A stretch of 20,072 bases of DNA from a virus: positions 1 through 20,072 of IMG/VR virus record IMGVR_UViG_3300009285_012490. One strand, 5' to 3'. Shown in pieces: positions 5,772 to 20,072 of the stretch (position 1 is the first letter of the stretch; every line of letters starts with the position of its first letter). The position numbers and the translations under genes were made by a program. The notes below the pieces were generated by a model. It had not been told where the DNA came from, ran no database searches, and saw only the letters and a program-made list of their open reading frames with translations.

Positions 5772-6863
5772 TTAAAATGGGATATCGTCACTATTTTTAA
5801 GTTTCCGTTTAGGAGTAGGCCTTCTCAGCTTTGCATTCTCAGCTTTGCATAGTTGGAAAACCTTACACTTGGCCTCACCACATTCTTCATATTCATCAAA
5901 TTCTACTCCTAGAATCCCGCCCCAAGGACATTCCGCATCTTCTGAAGAAGCCGTTTGGGGGAAATCTAGTGGAACATCATCGCCAATTGGCTCCTCCTCT
6001 TTAGGCACAGAAGGTGTATTTTGTTTAAGCCCCTTCCGTGGCGGAAGTTCTTCTTGTGGTGTATCTTCTCGTTTAACCTTTTTTACCTTAGTTAGTTCTT
6101 TAATCTGATCATAATTCTTTAGAACTACTAATTCATCAAGTGTAATTGCCCCAGAAAGTTCCTTGTCAGAAAGATCATAAGTCCTTGCTACCAACTCATA
6201 CCCACCAAGGATGTACTTCCTCTCTCCCGGCTTAGTCCCTTCAAAATAGATAGAATACCCATCTTTATCTGGCCAGCTATAAAACCTCTCTTCTCCAGTA
6301 CTCTTATTAATTTTAAGGGATTGTAGCTTTTCCTCCATCCAATGAAATGGATAATCAAGAATTTGAACACCCTTCTCTTGCTCTTCTCCCTTATCTCGAA
6401 CAACAACATTATAAACAACTCGATGCTGAGTACCAAATTCTTGATGGATCTTATGGCGCTCTTCCTTTACATAAGTTTGAGCGAGTTTTTCTAGCTTCTC
6501 TTCACAAATAGGGCAAGGAAGCCCAAAATTTTCATATGGACAAACAATCCTCAAATTCTGGGGGCCAACATTTGTATGGATGAATAGATTTAAAACATAT
6601 GCAGGATCGCCTTCCTTTAAACTAATAATAGAGACTCCTTGCCTTTTAACATTCGGGTAAGTTGGCCACTTACTCCCTACGATAAATGGGACAATATCAA
6701 ACATATATCCCAATGGCTTTTCTTTAAACTTAGGGCTCCATTGGTTAACTCCCTCAGAAATATTCAAATATGTTTCAAAGCTATTCCCGTCATTTCGAAT
6801 GCTTTCCTGTTCTTGTTGCCGTTGTTTCAACCCTTCCTTCATTTTGCTACGATCAAAAGCCAT
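5772..6863 (-). CDS. Single-stranded DNA-binding protein with Cys knuckles and DDIPF tail
   Basis: I place the start at the ATG at 6863, because GGAGGA lies 5 bases before it and would be inside the coding sequence of the alternative ATG at 6875. The 363-residue protein has a large N-terminal domain of OB-fold-like strand pattern, a Cys cluster (CPYENFGLPCPICEEKL), a charged Pro/Glu-rich linker, a second Cys cluster (AECPWGGI...EECGEAKCKVFQLC), and ends SDDIPF. The acidic DDIPF tip is the classic SSB tail that recruits partner proteins. With recA next, a T4 gp32-like role coating single-stranded DNA is likely. The gene is less A+T-rich than its neighbours. A 14-bp tandem duplication lies near its 3' end. 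The OB fold itself is inferred, not seen as a motif. Confidence 0.82.
   Translation of the reverse strand: MAFDRSKMKEGLKQRQQEQESIRNDGNSFETYLNISEGVNQWSPKFKEKPLGYMFDIVPFIVGSKWPTYPNVKRQGVSIISLKEGDPAYVLNLFIHTNVGPQNLRIVCPYENFGLPCPICEEKLEKLAQTYVKEERHKIHQEFGTQHRVVYNVVVRDKGEEQEKGVQILDYPFHWMEEKLQSLKINKSTGEERFYSWPDKDGYSIYFEGTKPGERKYILGGYELVARTYDLSDKELSGAITLDELVVLKNYDQIKELTKVKKVKREDTPQEELPPRKGLKQNTPSVPKEEEPIGDDVPLDFPQTASSEDAECPWGGILGVEFDEYEECGEAKCKVFQLCKAENAKLRRPTPKRKLKNSDDIPF
5823..5850. repeat. 14-bp perfect tandem duplication inside the SSB gene
   Basis: TCTCAGCTTTGCAT occurs twice in direct succession. Because 14 is not a multiple of three, the copies are read in different frames: the first in the translation direction gives CKAE and the second gives AKLR. 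The downstream frame reaches the DDIPF tail only with both copies present. Confidence 0.95.
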
Positions 6864-6874
6864 TGAATCCTCCA

Positions 6875-7108
6875 TTAATTATTTTTATTTTCTTGCGGCA
6901 ATAAAGATTTTGCTTTTGCTATTATCTTTTCTTCATAAATAAATCGACAAGAATAATAGCTTTGGAATAAATTACTAAATAAACTCTGGAAAAAAGCATT
7001 TAACATTCTTTTAAAAGCATTTGGGATCACTTTTGTAACCAATAAACCGACAATTACAAAAAGAATCGCCCAACTCCACCAGGACCAAACAAAAATGTCA
7101 AGATTCAT
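6875..7108 (-). CDS. Small membrane protein (77 aa)
   Basis: A hydrophobic N-terminal helix (WSWAILFVIVGLLVTKVI) is followed by an amphipathic, aromatic-rich region (MLNAFFQSLFSNLFQSYY) and a charged tail. It is probably a single-pass inner-membrane peptide with a cytoplasmic C-terminus. The start lies inside the end of the coiled-coil gene (11-base overlap) and the stop lies 12 bases before the SSB start. No family is recognised. Small membrane peptides between phage replication genes often prove to be host-takeover or exclusion factors, but nothing in this sequence shows that. Confidence 0.7.
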   Translation of the reverse strand: MNLDIFVWSWWSWAILFVIVGLLVTKVIPNAFKRMLNAFFQSLFSNLFQSYYSCRFIYEEKIIAKAKSLLPQENKNN

Positions 7109-7658
7109 TGTTTAATTTTCTTCTCCCTTTCAGGGCTCTACTACCCATTCTTTGAGATAACCCATTTAATTCTTCTTGACCTTCCTCCCTTGGTTGAATT
7201 TGAATTTCTTGAATTGCCTCTTTTACATAATAACCACTAAAAAAAAGATCTTTCAATTGATCAATTTTCTTACTTTTTTCTAACAAGACATAATGAAAAT
7301 TTTTGTATTTATGCTCTATGCTTTCTTGTTCTGCCATTTCCTCCCTAAGTAATTTAATTTTATTGATAAGGGTTAAATATTCTTCTTGAGTAAAAACCCA
7401 ATTCTCAGCAACTTTATCAGAAGGAGATTTATCAAATCCATAATCCCCCCAGCTTGTTTTTAGCTTAAAAGCAAGCTTTGCCTTAACCTCTTTTAAATCG
7501 TCTTGTAAATTTTCAAATTGAGATTTTAATTTAGTATATCGACTAAAAGCCTTGTCCCATAATTCATCATAGCTTTGAATAAGAGAAGCTATATTAGCAC
7601 TTTCTTCATCTAAAGCATATTTGTCTATTTTTGAATCCTGTTTAGGGTTTAATTCCAT
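7098..7658 (-). CDS. Coiled-coil protein, possible UvsY-like recombination mediator
   Basis: This 186-residue protein has a long helical hairpin. The first arm spans about residues 20-70 (YTKLKSQFENLQDDLKEVKAKL is part of it). A loop containing SWGDYGFDKSPSDKVAENWV follows, then a second arm to about residue 150, and last a basic tail (RALKGRRKLNN). A helical hairpin of this kind with a basic end, encoded beside SSB and RecA, resembles recombination mediators such as T4 UvsY, which load the recombinase onto SSB-coated DNA. That assignment rests on architecture and neighbours, not on a diagnostic motif. It overlaps the nicotinamide phosphoribosyltransferase gene upstream (10 bases) and the membrane peptide gene downstream. 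A structural or chaperone role cannot be excluded. Confidence 0.65.
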   Translation of the reverse strand: MELNPKQDSKIDKYALDEESANIASLIQSYDELWDKAFSRYTKLKSQFENLQDDLKEVKAKLAFKLKTSWGDYGFDKSPSDKVAENWVFTQEEYLTLINKIKLLREEMAEQESIEHKYKNFHYVLLEKSKKIDQLKDLFFSGYYVKEAIQEIQIQPREEGQEELNGLSQRMGSRALKGRRKLNNES

Positions 7659-9127
7659 AAACTCTCCTCAGCTAATCGATTACGAATTCTTTGCAAAGAA
7701 TCATTTACTAAAAGCAAACCATCCTTAAAAATTGTCCGCATCAAATCCGGCTCTCTATGATAAAATGAGAGATTGTCTTTACAGATCAATTTTCCGTTTT
7801 CCTTCATTACAGCAACAACTCCTGTATTTGATTTCTTTGTTCCATCATCTGTTGCTGGATTTTTATAAATATTCTTCTGTATTCCATCAATCATACAAGC
7901 TGTTGATTTAATCGCAAAACCAAAAGTATCACGAGTATTATATTGAAAAGTATACGAGCCGATTCCGTAAACCATATTTGTAGAAGCAAAGCCTTTTTGT
8001 TTTAATCCTTCACAAATATTTTTACATCTATCTAAAGTGATTGAATCCCCATAAATAGCGCCAATATGAGGATCAAGAACTTTATATCCCCTTTCATTAA
8101 TAGTCCCACCAAAAATATCCCAAAAAACCTCAATTACTCCCTTTTGAGCTAGTGGATTTGAAGAAGACAAATCTCCACAAATAATTTTTACAGGATCTCC
8201 CGAATCTGGACGGATGGTACACTTCCCATTTCTGGACATAATCACATCTTTTAATGGAGAAATAACATCGGACAAGCATTTCCAAAGGTCCCACGTATCC
8301 GAAACAATACTGACAATTCCGGTTGGATAGACCTTTGTAAGGAGTCTCTTATAGGTTTCTAGTTCATTTTGCCCATCTCCACCGGTGGACATAACAGAAT
8401 GCTCTGTTGCGGAAACACTACAACAAACGAGTTCTTTTTCAATATTTGCATTGTAATACTTCTCTAGATAAAAAATAGCAGGAACAGTGTCTGAACCGAC
8501 AAATGAAAGTAAATGGGCCGAACCAATTAAATTACAGGCTTCTACTCCTATCAAGCCTCGCATAGAAAAATCATGCCCTTGAAATTTAACAAACCCAAGA
8601 TCGCCTGTTTCTTCAGCATATTTACTAAGCAAAACATTATATTCTTTTGATATTGTGGCAGCTGTAGACATTGGCCACAATTCAGCAGACATAAGAGTTT
8701 CAATATAATTAGTTAGCCAAAAAAATCTTTTATCGGTGTTACAAATTGTTAGCATTGGAACTCGAATAGGAGAACACATTCCTTCTGGCAATGCCCGAAT
8801 GTGCAATGGTAAATACCCTAAGGCATGAAGATCTTCAAGATGCTTTGTATGAGGATTTTCTACTCCCAGTGCATATTTAATAACTCGTGCATATTCAGTA
8901 ATAACATTTTTAAGGGGCCGAGAAAAGAAATTATCATTAAAATAATCAATAAGAAATTTCTTAATAAAGCCCTGAAAACCAAAAGCAACAACTTTATCTA
9001 CAGATGGATGATATTTATTACTTCGTGGTGTCCAGGTAGAATAAATCATTTGTGTCTTTTCTGGATATTGCTCTCGATGAGAAACCTTATAAAAATCACA
9101 AAGTAGCGTTGGCGGAGTTTGCGTCAT
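7649..9127 (-). CDS. nadV: Nicotinamide phosphoribosyltransferase family (NAMPT/NadV; possible Namat of NARP1)
   Basis: The full-length 492-residue protein has all the hallmarks of the NAMPT family: DFYKVSHREQYP at residues 11-22, KFQGHDFSMRG (181-191), GSDTVPA (211-217), ATEHSVM with the catalytic His243, VSDTWDLW (275-282), RPDSGDP (306-312), IYGDSIT (358-364) and GIGSYTFQYNTRDTFGFAIKST (from 388). The classical reaction joins nicotinamide to PRPP to give NMN. In the phage NARP1 pathway a family relative (Namat) instead joins nicotinamide to ADP-ribose pyrophosphate, giving NAD+ directly. The PRPP-synthetase-like gene one base upstream supports this second possibility. A good Shine-Dalgarno (GAAGGGG) precedes the ATG. 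No motif I can read separates the two substrates. Confidence 0.95.
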   Translation of the reverse strand: MTQTPPTLLCDFYKVSHREQYPEKTQMIYSTWTPRSNKYHPSVDKVVAFGFQGFIKKFLIDYFNDNFFSRPLKNVITEYARVIKYALGVENPHTKHLEDLHALGYLPLHIRALPEGMCSPIRVPMLTICNTDKRFFWLTNYIETLMSAELWPMSTAATISKEYNVLLSKYAEETGDLGFVKFQGHDFSMRGLIGVEACNLIGSAHLLSFVGSDTVPAIFYLEKYYNANIEKELVCCSVSATEHSVMSTGGDGQNELETYKRLLTKVYPTGIVSIVSDTWDLWKCLSDVISPLKDVIMSRNGKCTIRPDSGDPVKIICGDLSSSNPLAQKGVIEVFWDIFGGTINERGYKVLDPHIGAIYGDSITLDRCKNICEGLKQKGFASTNMVYGIGSYTFQYNTRDTFGFAIKSTACMIDGIQKNIYKNPATDDGTKKSNTGVVAVMKENGKLICKDNLSFYHREPDLMRTIFKDGLLLVNDSLQRIRNRLAEESLWN

Positions 9128-9128
9128 T

Positions 9129-9908
9129 TTATTCCCCTTCTCTAACTTTAATAATTCTTGGATGGTTTTTTAATTCTCTTTCTGGACTTGTATAAATTCT
9201 ATCAATATAATCAAACAGTTCTCCATTAAAAACATTATCTTCGCAATAAGAGACAAGTAAATTTATTGCGCCAACATTGGGAAATTTGCTTCTAATTTCC
9301 TTGGAGGCATTAATAAATGTCCCTCCCTTGCTACAAATATCGTCTACAATAAGGACATTCCCTTGTAAAAAACCACTTATCTCATACTTTCTAATCTCTC
9401 CTGTAGTAAAATCTCTAGTCTTCTTACCATATGCTACAGGAAGTCCAACTTTTTGCAAATCATATCTAGCCAATGCTCCAAAATCAGGATAAAAAAGACT
9501 AGCGGTATGAGAAAATTTACAAATTTTCTCAAAACAATTTTCTATCCAATTATCTTGAGAAAAATTTGCTAAATAATCTCCTGTTGCCGCAGAATGAGGT
9601 TCCCTTACTATTACTTTTCCAAAACCCATAGAATTAATCAAATGACAAATTGCTTTAAGGCTAAAAGAATAAACATCATTTTTTCTGTCCATCCGAGAAT
9701 ATGGCATATAAGTAATATAAAGACATGTTTTAGCCCCCATATCATTTATATACTCTTGTAAAATCGCCAAATTGATTAGATCTTCATTGCTCTCAAAAAC
9801 AAATTTAATATAATTAAATTCCTTAATATCTAAATCAGAAATAGACAAATAGCTTTCTAAATTCGGATATTTCCCAAATTTTATTTCTCTATCATTTAAA
9901 TAAAGCAT
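9129..9908 (-). CDS. PRPP-synthetase-like protein (Prs family; possible Adps of NARP1)
   Basis: This 259-residue member of the Prs/type I phosphoribosyltransferase fold is shorter than bacterial Prs (about 315). Recognisable elements are the flexible-loop YMPYSRMDRKN (residues 67-77, like FPYARQDR), PHSAATGD (104-111, metal-site His), FYPDFGALARYD (139-150, like SPDVGGVxRA) and the PRPP-binding signature VLIVDDICSKGGT (185-197). Canonical Prs makes PRPP from ribose-5-phosphate and ATP. The phage NARP1 enzyme Adps is a divergent Prs that pyrophosphorylates ADP-ribose. The gene ends one base before the nicotinamide phosphoribosyltransferase gene, so the two form a two-enzyme unit for making NMN or, more interestingly, rebuilding NAD+. 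Family assignment is secure; substrate is inference. Confidence 0.9.
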   Translation of the reverse strand: MLYLNDREIKFGKYPNLESYLSISDLDIKEFNYIKFVFESNEDLINLAILQEYINDMGAKTCLYITYMPYSRMDRKNDVYSFSLKAICHLINSMGFGKVIVREPHSAATGDYLANFSQDNWIENCFEKICKFSHTASLFYPDFGALARYDLQKVGLPVAYGKKTRDFTTGEIRKYEISGFLQGNVLIVDDICSKGGTFINASKEIRSKFPNVGAINLLVSYCEDNVFNGELFDYIDRIYTSPERELKNHPRIIKVREGE

Positions 9909-12976: not shown

Positions 12977-15900
12977 TCATTCAAATCCCCCTAATTGTTC
13001 GATTTTTTCTATAAAGTTATTAATCCCCTCCTTAAGCTTTGGCATATTTTCATTTTTGTCATACAAACAGCAACTTGGATGAACGCAATAACAAATCCAA
13101 GCTTTATATTCTTCATTCCACTCAGTAGAACCATTCCATTTAAATATTCCCGTGTCAATATTTTTAAAAAATTTTAAGTTTGTATTGCCAAGAGCTAGAA
13201 TAATAAAGGGGCTAACTTTTTCAATCTCTTTTTCTAACCATGGTCTACATGCCTCTACTTGCTCTTTAGTGATATTTTTCCCCTTACATTTTATCGCATT
13301 TGTAACATAAAACATAGAACGATCATAACCATGCTTATCTAAAGCATCCCACAATATTTTACCAGAGTCTCCTACAAATGGTTTGCCTTCCTGAAACTCA
13401 TTTGTCCAGCCGGATTCTCCTACAATCATAACATTGTATAGCCCACAGGCGGCGTTCAATGGTTTTTTACAATTTCTCCTAAGTTCGCAATTAGTGCAAC
13501 TTATTAAATCTTCTAGAGGGGGAATAGGCTTTATTTCTTTAGCAAAAAACCTAGAACGAATATTCCCTGTCAATAAATCATCTAGATTATAATTATTTGT
13601 GTTGCCAATTAATTTATTAAGATTTGGATATTTATTTTCAACAGAAAACACAAAATTTAATTTAAAATATTGATCTATTGTTTCAGGAATGTCATCTGTA
13701 AAAGCTCCGATTCCATCTAGAATTGTTTTTAGTTTGCCCTTAATTATTGGCTTTTCTTCTTTGTTGAAAAAACTATCTTTAATTGTTTGATTTGCTTCTA
13801 TAATTTCTAAAGCCTTATTCCCTATTCCTTTTACCTCTGAAAATGGGACAAATAATTTTCCTCCCTTAGCAACCCAATTTTTAGTATGAGAATATACTAT
13901 TTTTGGAGGAATAATTTCTAATTTAAGACGTTTTGCTTCTTTAAGCAGGGCCTCTTTTTGATTGTCTGTTCCTTTTGATAAACTTGCAGCAAGAAATTCA
14001 TAAGGGTAATATTTTTTTAGCCATGCTGTCCAGTAAGCCAATATAGCATATGCTAGAGCATGGGCTATATTGAAGGAATAAGAGGCATGCGCTTGAAGTT
14101 CTACCCAAAATTGATGAGCTTCTTCTTTGCTAAGAGTTTGTTTTTCTAAGCAACCATTAATAAACATATCTTTATATTTTTCAAATTCTTTTGGATCTCT
14201 TTTTTTACCAATAATACGCCTAATATCATCTGCAACCTGAAGAGAAAGGTCAGCAACTTTATTAAAAACAAACATTATTTGTTCTTGATAACAACAAATC
14301 CCAAAACTCTTTTCTGTAATTTCTTCATAGATATGATGTTTTGGAGTCCATGTTTTGCCTTTTTTTCTTTTAATGTATTCTTCTGTTGCCCCAGAATCAA
14401 AAGCTCCCGGTCTGACAAGGGCCATCGCATCGGAAAGTTGGTGTAAATTATCTACTCCCATTTCCTTAATTAAATTATTCATAGACCAAGTACAAATTTG
14501 AAAACATCCTTCATTATGGCCAGCAGAAATTTCTTTATAAACTTTTGGATCTTCTAAATTTAATTTTTCTAAATTAATAACCTTTCCATAATTTTGCTTA
14601 ATAAGCTCTTGTGTCTCATTTACAACAGAGAGGGTATTTAATGCAAGAACATCGAGCTTCATTAATCCTTGGTATTCACAATCTTCCATATCCCAATTAA
14701 CAACTAATTGTTCGCTTCTTTCAGCTAAATTCGCCCGTGTCCCTAAATTTAAATCCTCAGGAGAAATAATAGAAGCAGCAGCATGCCGACCATACGCTTT
14801 ATATTGCCCACGAAGTTTTAAAGCATGTTTTATAACATTAGGATATTTATTATTAAACGCTCTCCCCTCTTCAGTTCCAATAGCTGTTTCAATATCCTCA
14901 ACAATTGTTTTGGTAAAATTATTTACTTCTAAAAGATTAACTTCAAATACTCTTGCTACATCTTTAACAACACTTCTATCTTCAAGTTTAAGAAATGTAG
15001 TCACGCTAGCAATTTGATTTTGTCCATAAGTATTCTGGAGATAGGCTATAACTTTATCTCTTTTAGTGTCCATGAAGTCTAGATCGATGTCCGGGAAAGA
15101 CTGTCTTCCTGGATTGATAAAGCGCTCAAACAGCAAGTCATATTTAATGGGATCTATCATAGTTATCCCCATTAAATATGCAATTAAACAGCCCCCGACA
15201 CTACCACGGCCGGGGCCAACCAAAATATTATTTTTGCGACAAAAATTAACTAAATCATAAACAATCAAAAAATATCGAATAAAATTTTTACCTTTTAAAA
15301 CAGAAAATTCATACTCAAATCTGTCTTTATATTCTTGAGGGACTATTTCAAAATTTTTTCTTAACCTTTCTTCACATAAAAGTCTAAGAATATTATCTTC
15401 ATTCAATCCTTTAAACTGCGGAACCTCAGGCAAATCCATTTGTTGTTTTTCAATTCTAAATTTCTCACATTTTTGGGCAATTTTATATGTGTTTGAAAGA
15501 GCTTGGCGAATTTGAGTTTGATTTAAAATTCCCTGATTTTCAAATTTTTCCATTATAATATTAGTGGGACAAAGATATAGTCCTTTAATCCCAAACTTCC
15601 AGCGATTTGGATCGTTCCAAATTGCCTTAGTCTGCATTGCTAAAAGAATTTCATGAGTCTCCCAATCCTCTTCTTCGATATAGTGAGAATCTAACGTCCC
15701 AATAATTGGAATATTATAATCTTCTGATATTTTTAAAATTGTTTTATTTAATTCTATTTGTTCTGGAATATCATGAGGCATAACTTCAAGATATAAATCA
15801 TCTTGAAGTTTTTTATATAATTGCAAAAAGAAATCTAGACCACCTTTAAGAAGAATAAAAGAATTATGACAAGCAGTTGAAACAATCAGTCCTTCGCAAT

Positions 15901-16279
15901 TATTTAAGAAAAAATTAAAATCTGTTCTCGGACGATAATAAAAACCATTAAGATTCGCATTGCTTAGAATTTTAAGAATATTTTGCCAACCAATTTTATT
16001 CTTAATAAATACTGTTATATGGCCTCGTTTTTCTCCCTTTTCTTTAAATTCATTATCAGGAACAATAAAAAGTTCTGTTCCTGCAATAGGGATGATTCCT
16101 TCTTTCTCACAGGCTTTTTGATGTTTAATTAAGCCATCTACATTCCCATGGTTTGAAACTCCTAAATATTTATATCCTAGTTCTTTAGCTTTTTTTGCTG
16201 CCTGTTCTGGGGTTCCTAAACCATCAAGTAGGGAAAAAGTATCATGTCTATGCAAATGTACATATTTAGGAATTGCCAT
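12977..16279 (-). CDS. dnaE: DNA polymerase III alpha (DnaE type) fused to a family-4-like uracil-DNA glycosylase
   Basis: Numbering is from the ATG at 16279. A GTG 21 bases upstream is possible. Residues 5-270 form a PHP domain (HLHRHDTFSLLDG, SNHGN, TLDSHY). The C-family palm follows with GPGRGS (355-360), the two catalytic aspartates in PDIDLDF (396-402), and KLDVLALNTL for the third. The fingers carry the FGICCYQEQIM and NIAHALAYAILAYWTAWLK motifs, and a helix-hairpin-helix is near VKGIGNKALEII. Instead of the usual OB fold and tau-binding tail, the last ~173 residues are a uracil-DNA glycosylase domain. It has CTNC and KC...EAC cysteines for a 4Fe-4S cluster, GESGWTNEF...GKPFVGDSGKIL as the first motif and VHPSCC as the His motif. 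It is the phage replicative polymerase. The fusion is an uninterrupted frame, with no start at the domain boundary that has a ribosome-binding site. Confidence 0.95.
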   Translation of the reverse strand: MAIPKYVHLHRHDTFSLLDGLGTPEQAAKKAKELGYKYLGVSNHGNVDGLIKHQKACEKEGIIPIAGTELFIVPDNEFKEKGEKRGHITVFIKNKIGWQNILKILSNANLNGFYYRPRTDFNFFLNNCEGLIVSTACHNSFILLKGGLDFFLQLYKKLQDDLYLEVMPHDIPEQIELNKTILKISEDYNIPIIGTLDSHYIEEEDWETHEILLAMQTKAIWNDPNRWKFGIKGLYLCPTNIIMEKFENQGILNQTQIRQALSNTYKIAQKCEKFRIEKQQMDLPEVPQFKGLNEDNILRLLCEERLRKNFEIVPQEYKDRFEYEFSVLKGKNFIRYFLIVYDLVNFCRKNNILVGPGRGSVGGCLIAYLMGITMIDPIKYDLLFERFINPGRQSFPDIDLDFMDTKRDKVIAYLQNTYGQNQIASVTTFLKLEDRSVVKDVARVFEVNLLEVNNFTKTIVEDIETAIGTEEGRAFNNKYPNVIKHALKLRGQYKAYGRHAAASIISPEDLNLGTRANLAERSEQLVVNWDMEDCEYQGLMKLDVLALNTLSVVNETQELIKQNYGKVINLEKLNLEDPKVYKEISAGHNEGCFQICTWSMNNLIKEMGVDNLHQLSDAMALVRPGAFDSGATEEYIKRKKGKTWTPKHHIYEEITEKSFGICCYQEQIMFVFNKVADLSLQVADDIRRIIGKKRDPKEFEKYKDMFINGCLEKQTLSKEEAHQFWVELQAHASYSFNIAHALAYAILAYWTAWLKKYYPYEFLAASLSKGTDNQKEALLKEAKRLKLEIIPPKIVYSHTKNWVAKGGKLFVPFSEVKGIGNKALEIIEANQTIKDSFFNKEEKPIIKGKLKTILDGIGAFTDDIPETIDQYFKLNFVFSVENKYPNLNKLIGNTNNYNLDDLLTGNIRSRFFAKEIKPIPPLEDLISCTNCELRRNCKKPLNAACGLYNVMIVGESGWTNEFQEGKPFVGDSGKILWDALDKHGYDRSMFYVTNAIKCKGKNITKEQVEACRPWLEKEIEKVSPFIILALGNTNLKFFKNIDTGIFKWNGSTEWNEEYKAWICYCVHPSCCLYDKNENMPKLKEGINNFIEKIEQLGGFE

Positions 16280-16311
16280 TTTTTTTGCTATCCTCGCCAC
16301 TTCAAAAATAA

Positions 16312-19699: not shown

Positions 19700-19703
19700 G
19701 TTG

Positions 19704-19820
19704 TTAGCAAGGAAGATTTGGCAAGTCTTTCGCTTTGACTTCGCCGCACCAGTGAATGATCCCTGTGTCGATTTGGTTTTCCTCAAATATTATTTTTCCT
19801 TTTTCGCAATAATCACACAT
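19704..19820 (-). CDS. Small CxxC peptide (38 aa)
   Basis: The ATG at 19820 has an excellent Shine-Dalgarno (AAAGGAG, 5 bases). The peptide opens MCDYCEKG and also has a Cys near residue 25 (HWCGEV) and one at the C-terminus, enough for a single zinc site. Upstream codons in the same frame belong to the GC-rich sequence and are not part of it. The stop is four bases before the primase ATG. Function unknown. Confidence 0.65.
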   Translation of the reverse strand: MCDYCEKGKIIFEENQIDTGIIHWCGEVKAKDLPNLPC

Positions 19821-19854
19821 ATATACTCCTTTAAAGCCCGGTTCTCGCTGAACT

Positions 19855-20072
19855 TCACGTTGGGCCATCAACGTAACAAATCCGACAAAGCGATTGTCCT
19901 TCACTGCCGATAAAGATGCCACCACACACCTCGCACCTTTCCCCGAAGCATGCAGCGTGCAGCATCCCCTCCCGAATCCCCGCCCTATACCGCTCCAGCA
20001 AATATGGGAAGTAGGCCGCATCGATCCCCCGGCATCTGGCCCCGTTGGCGAGCTGGCCGGAGACGATGCGGA
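19855..20072 (-). CDS. 3' end of a GC-rich gene encoding a zinc-ribbon C-terminus (partial)
   Basis: The frame is open from the right edge (first full codon at 20070) to TGA at 19855, giving 71 residues. It reads as a plausible protein: RIVSGQLANGARCRGIDAA, a helical stretch (YFPYLLERYRAGIREGML), then a zinc ribbon with CEVCGG and CRIC, ending YVDGPT. Base composition is clearly GC-rich, unlike everything to its left, with G or C at most third positions. It may be a recently acquired gene or an assembly join. Other frames on this stretch are broken or low-quality. Confidence 0.6.
   Translation of the reverse strand, partial: RIVSGQLANGARCRGIDAAYFPYLLERYRAGIREGMLHAACFGERCEVCGGIFIGSEGQSLCRICYVDGPT

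Follow-up and report, generated by a model that had tools for sequence, protein, structure and literature searches.

A phage C-family DNA polymerase with a predicted family-4-type uracil-DNA glycosylase domain in place of its OB fold and C-terminal domain

Timinskas et al. (2013) described, in one sentence and a figure, a DnaE variant (DnaEX) in which the OB fold and C-terminal domain (CTD) are replaced by a PF03167 uracil-DNA glycosylase (UDG) domain, and which occurs as an additional polymerase in some Yersinia pestis and Salmonella enterica strains (PMC3919608). We infer that this DnaEX-UDG is related to SSU5-type phage-plasmids. A literature search, whose coverage left out most subscription papers, retrieved no characterised DnaE-UDG, or assay of one, beyond that report. 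UDG folds are also covalently joined to the A-family polymerases of phages (phiLo [9QHS], the PaBG group, StAshley, ctfzr933, and SPO1). In vaccinia virus, the UDG D4 acts together with A20 as a DNA tether of the polymerase (PMC5682278; PMC10253040), with conflicting reports on whether excision is needed for processivity (PMC10253040).

The window analysed here is the whole 20,072-nucleotide stretch of one metagenomic virus contig (IMG/VR record IMGVR_UViG_3300009285_012490). Its fused polymerase gene resembles DnaEX-UDG in the order PHP, Pol3, (HhH)2, and UDG, the last standing where the OB fold and CTD would be (PMC3919608). The architecture has been known since 2013; what is new is how widely it occurs, that most copies are intact, and that the decay is graded. 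The first-pass annotation had named the SPO1 polymerase as the closest known arrangement, which proved incorrect: the same C-family fusion is found in PMC3919608 and in Salmonella phage SSU5 (subfamily HMM, E = 2.8e-23), Rhizobium phage RHph_Y2_11 (RHEph10-like), and Pseudomonas phages nickie and hairong. These phage genomes share the architecture of the window, but their UDG domains are degenerate. In SSU5 the degeneration is complete, with no cluster cysteines or catalytic motifs, whereas the window retains four cysteines and most catalytic residues; the Rhizobium and Pseudomonas phage copies have also lost the PHP ligands, which are intact in the window. The SSU5, RHph_Y2_11/RHEph10-type, and nickie/hairong fusions are annotated only as Pol III alpha. 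In the A-family phage polymerases, by contrast, the UDG is N-terminal and precedes an A-family core, while in the window it is C-terminal and follows a C-family one. Vaccinia D4-A20-E9 provides a works-like precedent for a UDG in polymerase processivity, although it involves another UDG family, separate subunits, and a B-family polymerase. The features of the fused gene are as follows (residues numbered from GTG 16300).

12977..16300, minus strand: DnaE-type DNA polymerase with C-terminal UDG domain, complete ORF, 1107 aa from GTG 16300
15854..16258, minus strand: PHP domain, residues 15-149 by Pfam (2.3e-27), the fold extending beyond
14642..15388, minus strand: Pol3 catalytic core (DNA_pol3_alpha), residues 305-553 (Pfam, 1.3e-74)
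14141..14635, minus strand: fingers, residues 556-720 (Pfam, 6e-39)
13769..13921, minus strand: helix-hairpin-helix region, residues 794-844 (HHH_6, 3.8e-5)
13529..13636, minus strand: linker joining the DnaE part to the UDG, residues 889-924 (structural alignment)
12989..13528, minus strand: family-4-type UDG domain, residues 925-1104 (Pfam and predicted structure)
13487..13498, minus strand: Fe-S cysteines 1 and 2, C935 and C938 (alignment)
13397..13420, minus strand: motif A, GESGWTNE, residues 961-968 (alignment; motif definition from PMC10359453)
13247..13288, minus strand: Cys3 to Cys4, C1005-x12-C1018 (alignment)
13061..13081, minus strand: motif B, HPSCCLY, residues 1074-1080 (alignment)

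As the first-pass annotation had proposed, polymerase and UDG share a single unbroken frame (12977-16300, minus strand), with no stop between them. The frame ends at a stop at 12977 and is open from GTG 16300 or ATG 16279; ATG 16279 is the likelier start, because homologues start only a few residues upstream of the PHP HxH. The proposed PHP, palm, and fingers of a C-family polymerase were all recovered by Pfam with their catalytic residues intact, including the aspartates D404, D406, and D550, and the polymerase scored 713.8 bits against TIGR00594 (cut-off, 434). As all nine PHP metal ligands (HHDHEHCDH) are present, the PHP domain is possibly a proofreading-type nuclease. The helix-hairpin-helix match was marginal (24.3 bits; cut-off, 25.6), and the structural match to DnaE reaches approximately residue 888. 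The linker that follows lies at the point where the OB fold and CTD of bacterial DnaE would begin. It contains the residues NLDDLL (window 13600-13640, residues ~897-902), which loosely resemble a clamp-binding motif.

AlphaFold2 models were built on an alignment of 42 fusions and compared with known structures using VIA-align. The whole-chain model had a mean pLDDT of 91.4 and a pTM of 0.79, and its residues up to ~888 superposed on DnaE structures (5lew, Z 46; 2hpi and 4iqj, Z 43). The C-terminal 253 residues (mean pLDDT 90.4, pTM 0.85) gave a glycosylase fold, as the earlier reading had predicted; the matches were the Thermus and Thermotoga family-4 enzymes 1ui1, 1ui0, and 1vk2 (Z 22-23, rmsd 1.8-2.3), with residues 924-1104 matching 1ui1 at Z 23.1 and 1.8 A and 1vk2 at Z 23.0 and 1.9 A. 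Since the DnaE match ends at ~888 and the UDG match starts at 924, the models place the UDG as a replacement for the OB fold and CTD. The reported absence of an OB fold and clamp-loader-binding tail is borne out: alignment with Taq Pol III alpha stops at Taq residue 1013, where the UDG comes next, no OB family was matched by Pfam in the window ORF, and the OB and C-terminal tau-binding domains that distinguish DnaE1, the bacterial replicative alpha subunit, are missing after the HhH. The Pfam match to UDG (PF03167, residues 956-1095, E = 2.6e-22, 79.8 bits; curated cut-off, 24.3) is far from chance. The gene thus almost certainly encodes a C-family polymerase whose OB fold and CTD gave way to a family-4-type UDG, the variant of Timinskas et al. 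(2013).

The UDG domain shares its fold and motif B with family-4 UDG and UdgX, and the four cluster cysteines (C935, C938, C1005, and C1018) with family 4. The first-pass annotation had called it family-4-like on the basis of these cysteines and the HPS motif, both of which were confirmed (HPS at 1074-1076); comparison with family 4 did not bear out motif A, where GESGWTNEF departs from GE(A/G)PGxxED (consensus GE(A/G)PG [PMC10359453]), both glutamates being retained. The Cys3-Cys4 spacing is 12, versus 15 in family 4 and most fusions. This leaves the catalytic loop three residues short, and the position of the catalytic Asn (N89 in Thermus) is lost; N1009 might be a stand-in. Neither the KRRIH loop nor the GEQPG of UdgX is present, and the domain scores below NCBIfam cut-offs (UDG_fam4, 79.3 bits; curated cut-off, 125.3). 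The cluster ligands and the Asn and His of the uracil pocket persist in the window phage, yet with its changed motif A and catalytic loop the domain probably excises uracil weakly or not at all. Against this, E962, E968, F975, N1001, H1074, and HPS are all retained, with which the domain could still excise.

The family was gathered from viral contig scans and three phage records. A proposed survey of other phages found the fusion in one frame at 88 loci besides the window, isolated phages included, corresponding to 69 distinct ORF sequences; some loci are partial and some derive from one contig entered twice. These loci argue against the refuting case named in the first-pass annotation, a stop and a new start between polymerase and UDG in related genomes. 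L081/L144 and L078 seem to be split by frameshifts and were not counted as separate genes. Matches from human faeces, Moorella, and a 595-kb phage contain the UDG with the polymerase not in the same frame. A single-sequence UDG scan of viral contigs returned nothing, so that alignment-based queries were needed, and a DNA-level search of phages with the window gave no match. Two genome-contig scans yielded no cellular copy, which is weak evidence of absence as the patterns were narrow.

Motif states were counted in a different set of 69 UDG domains, to which the window belongs along with a few UDG fragments lacking an in-frame polymerase. By the rule that E962, E/D968, N1001, and H1074 be present, 48 domains were intact and 21 failed, some of the latter being fragments or one-site differences. 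All four Fe-S cysteines were found in 61 of the 69 (46 of the intact and 15 of the decayed domains), and 45 have Thr or Ser where Thermus has N89. The fusion is found widely among uncultured phages, and in most of them the Fe-S active site looks intact; the SSU5 copy, the closest to the 2013 report among the phage sequences read, is catalytically dead. In L057 (9052-10212), an intein with a Vsr/DUF559-like nuclease is inserted exactly at the third cluster Cys of the fused UDG. Inteins favour conserved sites, and the position agrees with a constrained UDG but is no proof of activity. The fused polymerase of L146 (7989-13682; 1898 aa) carries two inserts within the polymerase portion; the second is an intein with a weak HNH match. 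L022, L035, and L051 carry the motif A GQDPG, like family-1 GQDPY, in family-4-type domains, and in L007, L008, and L011, from phages with cobT/cobS neighbours, the PHP metal ligands and UDG catalytic residues are both lost.

In polymerase trees (a quick tree and FastTree), the window grouped with L142/L054, then with L140/L046 and L141 (support 97-100). The short Cys3-Cys4 loop is common to this whole clade. Motif A reads NEYPN, GENPN, or NEAPH in the other members, and the motif B His is present in the window only. The window is thus less decayed than any other member of this clade, which is itself in decay. Across the tree, parsimony counted nine changes between the intact and decayed states, direction not inferred. 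Relatives without any UDG occur inside the fusion clade, implying several losses and showing that the UDG is dispensable in some phages. The UDG of nickie and hairong has lost the catalytic residues (LDGPS/CDGPS, NPA); between the two phages, dN/dS was 0.213 for the UDG and 0.190 for the polymerase (dS ~1; one pair, simple method). Values for window pairs were near saturation and were not relied on.

The window also encodes UvsX/RecA-like, gp32-like SSB, flap exonuclease, ATP ligase, DnaG-like primase, and resolvase-like nuclease genes, a phage replication-recombination set. The fused enzyme is probably the phage's main polymerase, because the 25 related records have one UDG each and no PolA. 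A clamp loader is encoded in 13 of the 25, and clamps gave weak, below-cut-off matches in 3, upstream of the polymerase in both cases read. In L135, a divergent beta-clamp-like protein (6311-7378) lies upstream and a clamp-loader AAA protein (13637-14554) downstream of the fused gene. Neither clamp loader (PF13177) nor clamp (PF00712) was detected in G009, G011, and G020 of the window clade; some related records may be incomplete, and a divergent clamp could escape detection. dUTPase exceeded the cut-off in one record for PF00692 and in one for PF08761. A uracil-DNA genome is unsupported, as dUTPase and ThyX scans gave mixed results.

We consider it an even prospect that the UDG serves this phage as a DNA-binding or tracking module of doubtful excision activity. 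On this view a tailed phage's replicative C-family polymerase has exchanged its OB and tau-binding domains for an Fe-S UDG of family-4 descent, ancestrally a plausible uracil-excising enzyme kept at the fork, which sits where the OB fold handles DNA. Selection would then have retained it as a DNA-binding or tracking domain even where excision residues were lost, possibly contributing to processivity or uracil sensing. Consistent with this, the sequences of 15 of the 21 decayed domains retain all four cysteines, and the dead UDG of nickie and hairong, constrained like its polymerase, argues for a retained non-excising role. By analogy, vaccinia D4/A20 offers a precedent of a UDG as DNA tether. 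The clade-wide short loop and degenerate motifs of the nearest relatives point to decay in the window lineage itself. The narrower version, in which a repair enzyme has turned into a built-in, clamp-independent tether in this lineage, is rather unlikely; it draws on the missing loader and clamp in G009, G011, and G020 as against a loader in 13 of 25 records. With loaders in those 13 and weak clamps in 3, processivity does not depend on a UDG tether in every phage.

Active surveillance, in which the UDG of the window and its relatives excises uracil from dUTP misincorporation or deamination near the fork and couples replication to base excision repair, is somewhat unlikely. The intact majority favours excision family-wide, judging by motifs, and the Ser/Thr at the N89 position recalls UdgX H109S, a mutant with a water at that position and the turnover of a conventional UDG (PMC10359453). 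Rare dUTPases could also make uracil frequent. The window, however, has GESGW and a shortened loop, its clade is eroding catalytically, decay recurs across the family, and excision from a single-stranded template would create an abasic block.

Improbable, by comparison with the DNA-binding reading, is a read-ahead sensor that binds template uracil uncut and makes synthesis stall, as archaeal B-family polymerases do through their uracil pocket. Such a sensor and fork surveillance were the two functions suggested by the first-pass annotation. The pocket residues N1001 and H1074 are kept despite the motif A change, and the constrained nickie/hairong domain would fit, but the nearest relatives have lost the uracil-binding His, so sensing is not conserved in the window clade. 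Equally doubtful is a relic, in which the once-active UDG of this lineage has lost its function and is now free to drift. The recurrent decay and the several losses would suit it, whereas the UDG fold predicted at pLDDT 90, the four cysteines of most decayed members, and the polymerase-like dN/dS of nickie/hairong speak against drift. An assembly chimera or an overlooked stop separating two genes, for which nothing speaks beyond the window being a metagenomic contig, is ruled out: many unrelated contigs, and isolated phages too, have the same junction, and 88 other loci carry both parts in one frame.

The graded decay provides a natural series for asking whether a replicase-borne glycosylase repairs, senses, or holds DNA, a question that applies equally to vaccinia D4 and phage PolA-UDG enzymes.

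At the right end of the window (19700-20072), upstream of the likely primase start, GC rises from ~0.27 to 0.59, and this end may be chimeric or foreign. Adjoining NAMPT-like and ribose-phosphate pyrophosphokinase-like genes (7649-9908) suggest NAD+ rebuilding, possibly as a counter-defence.
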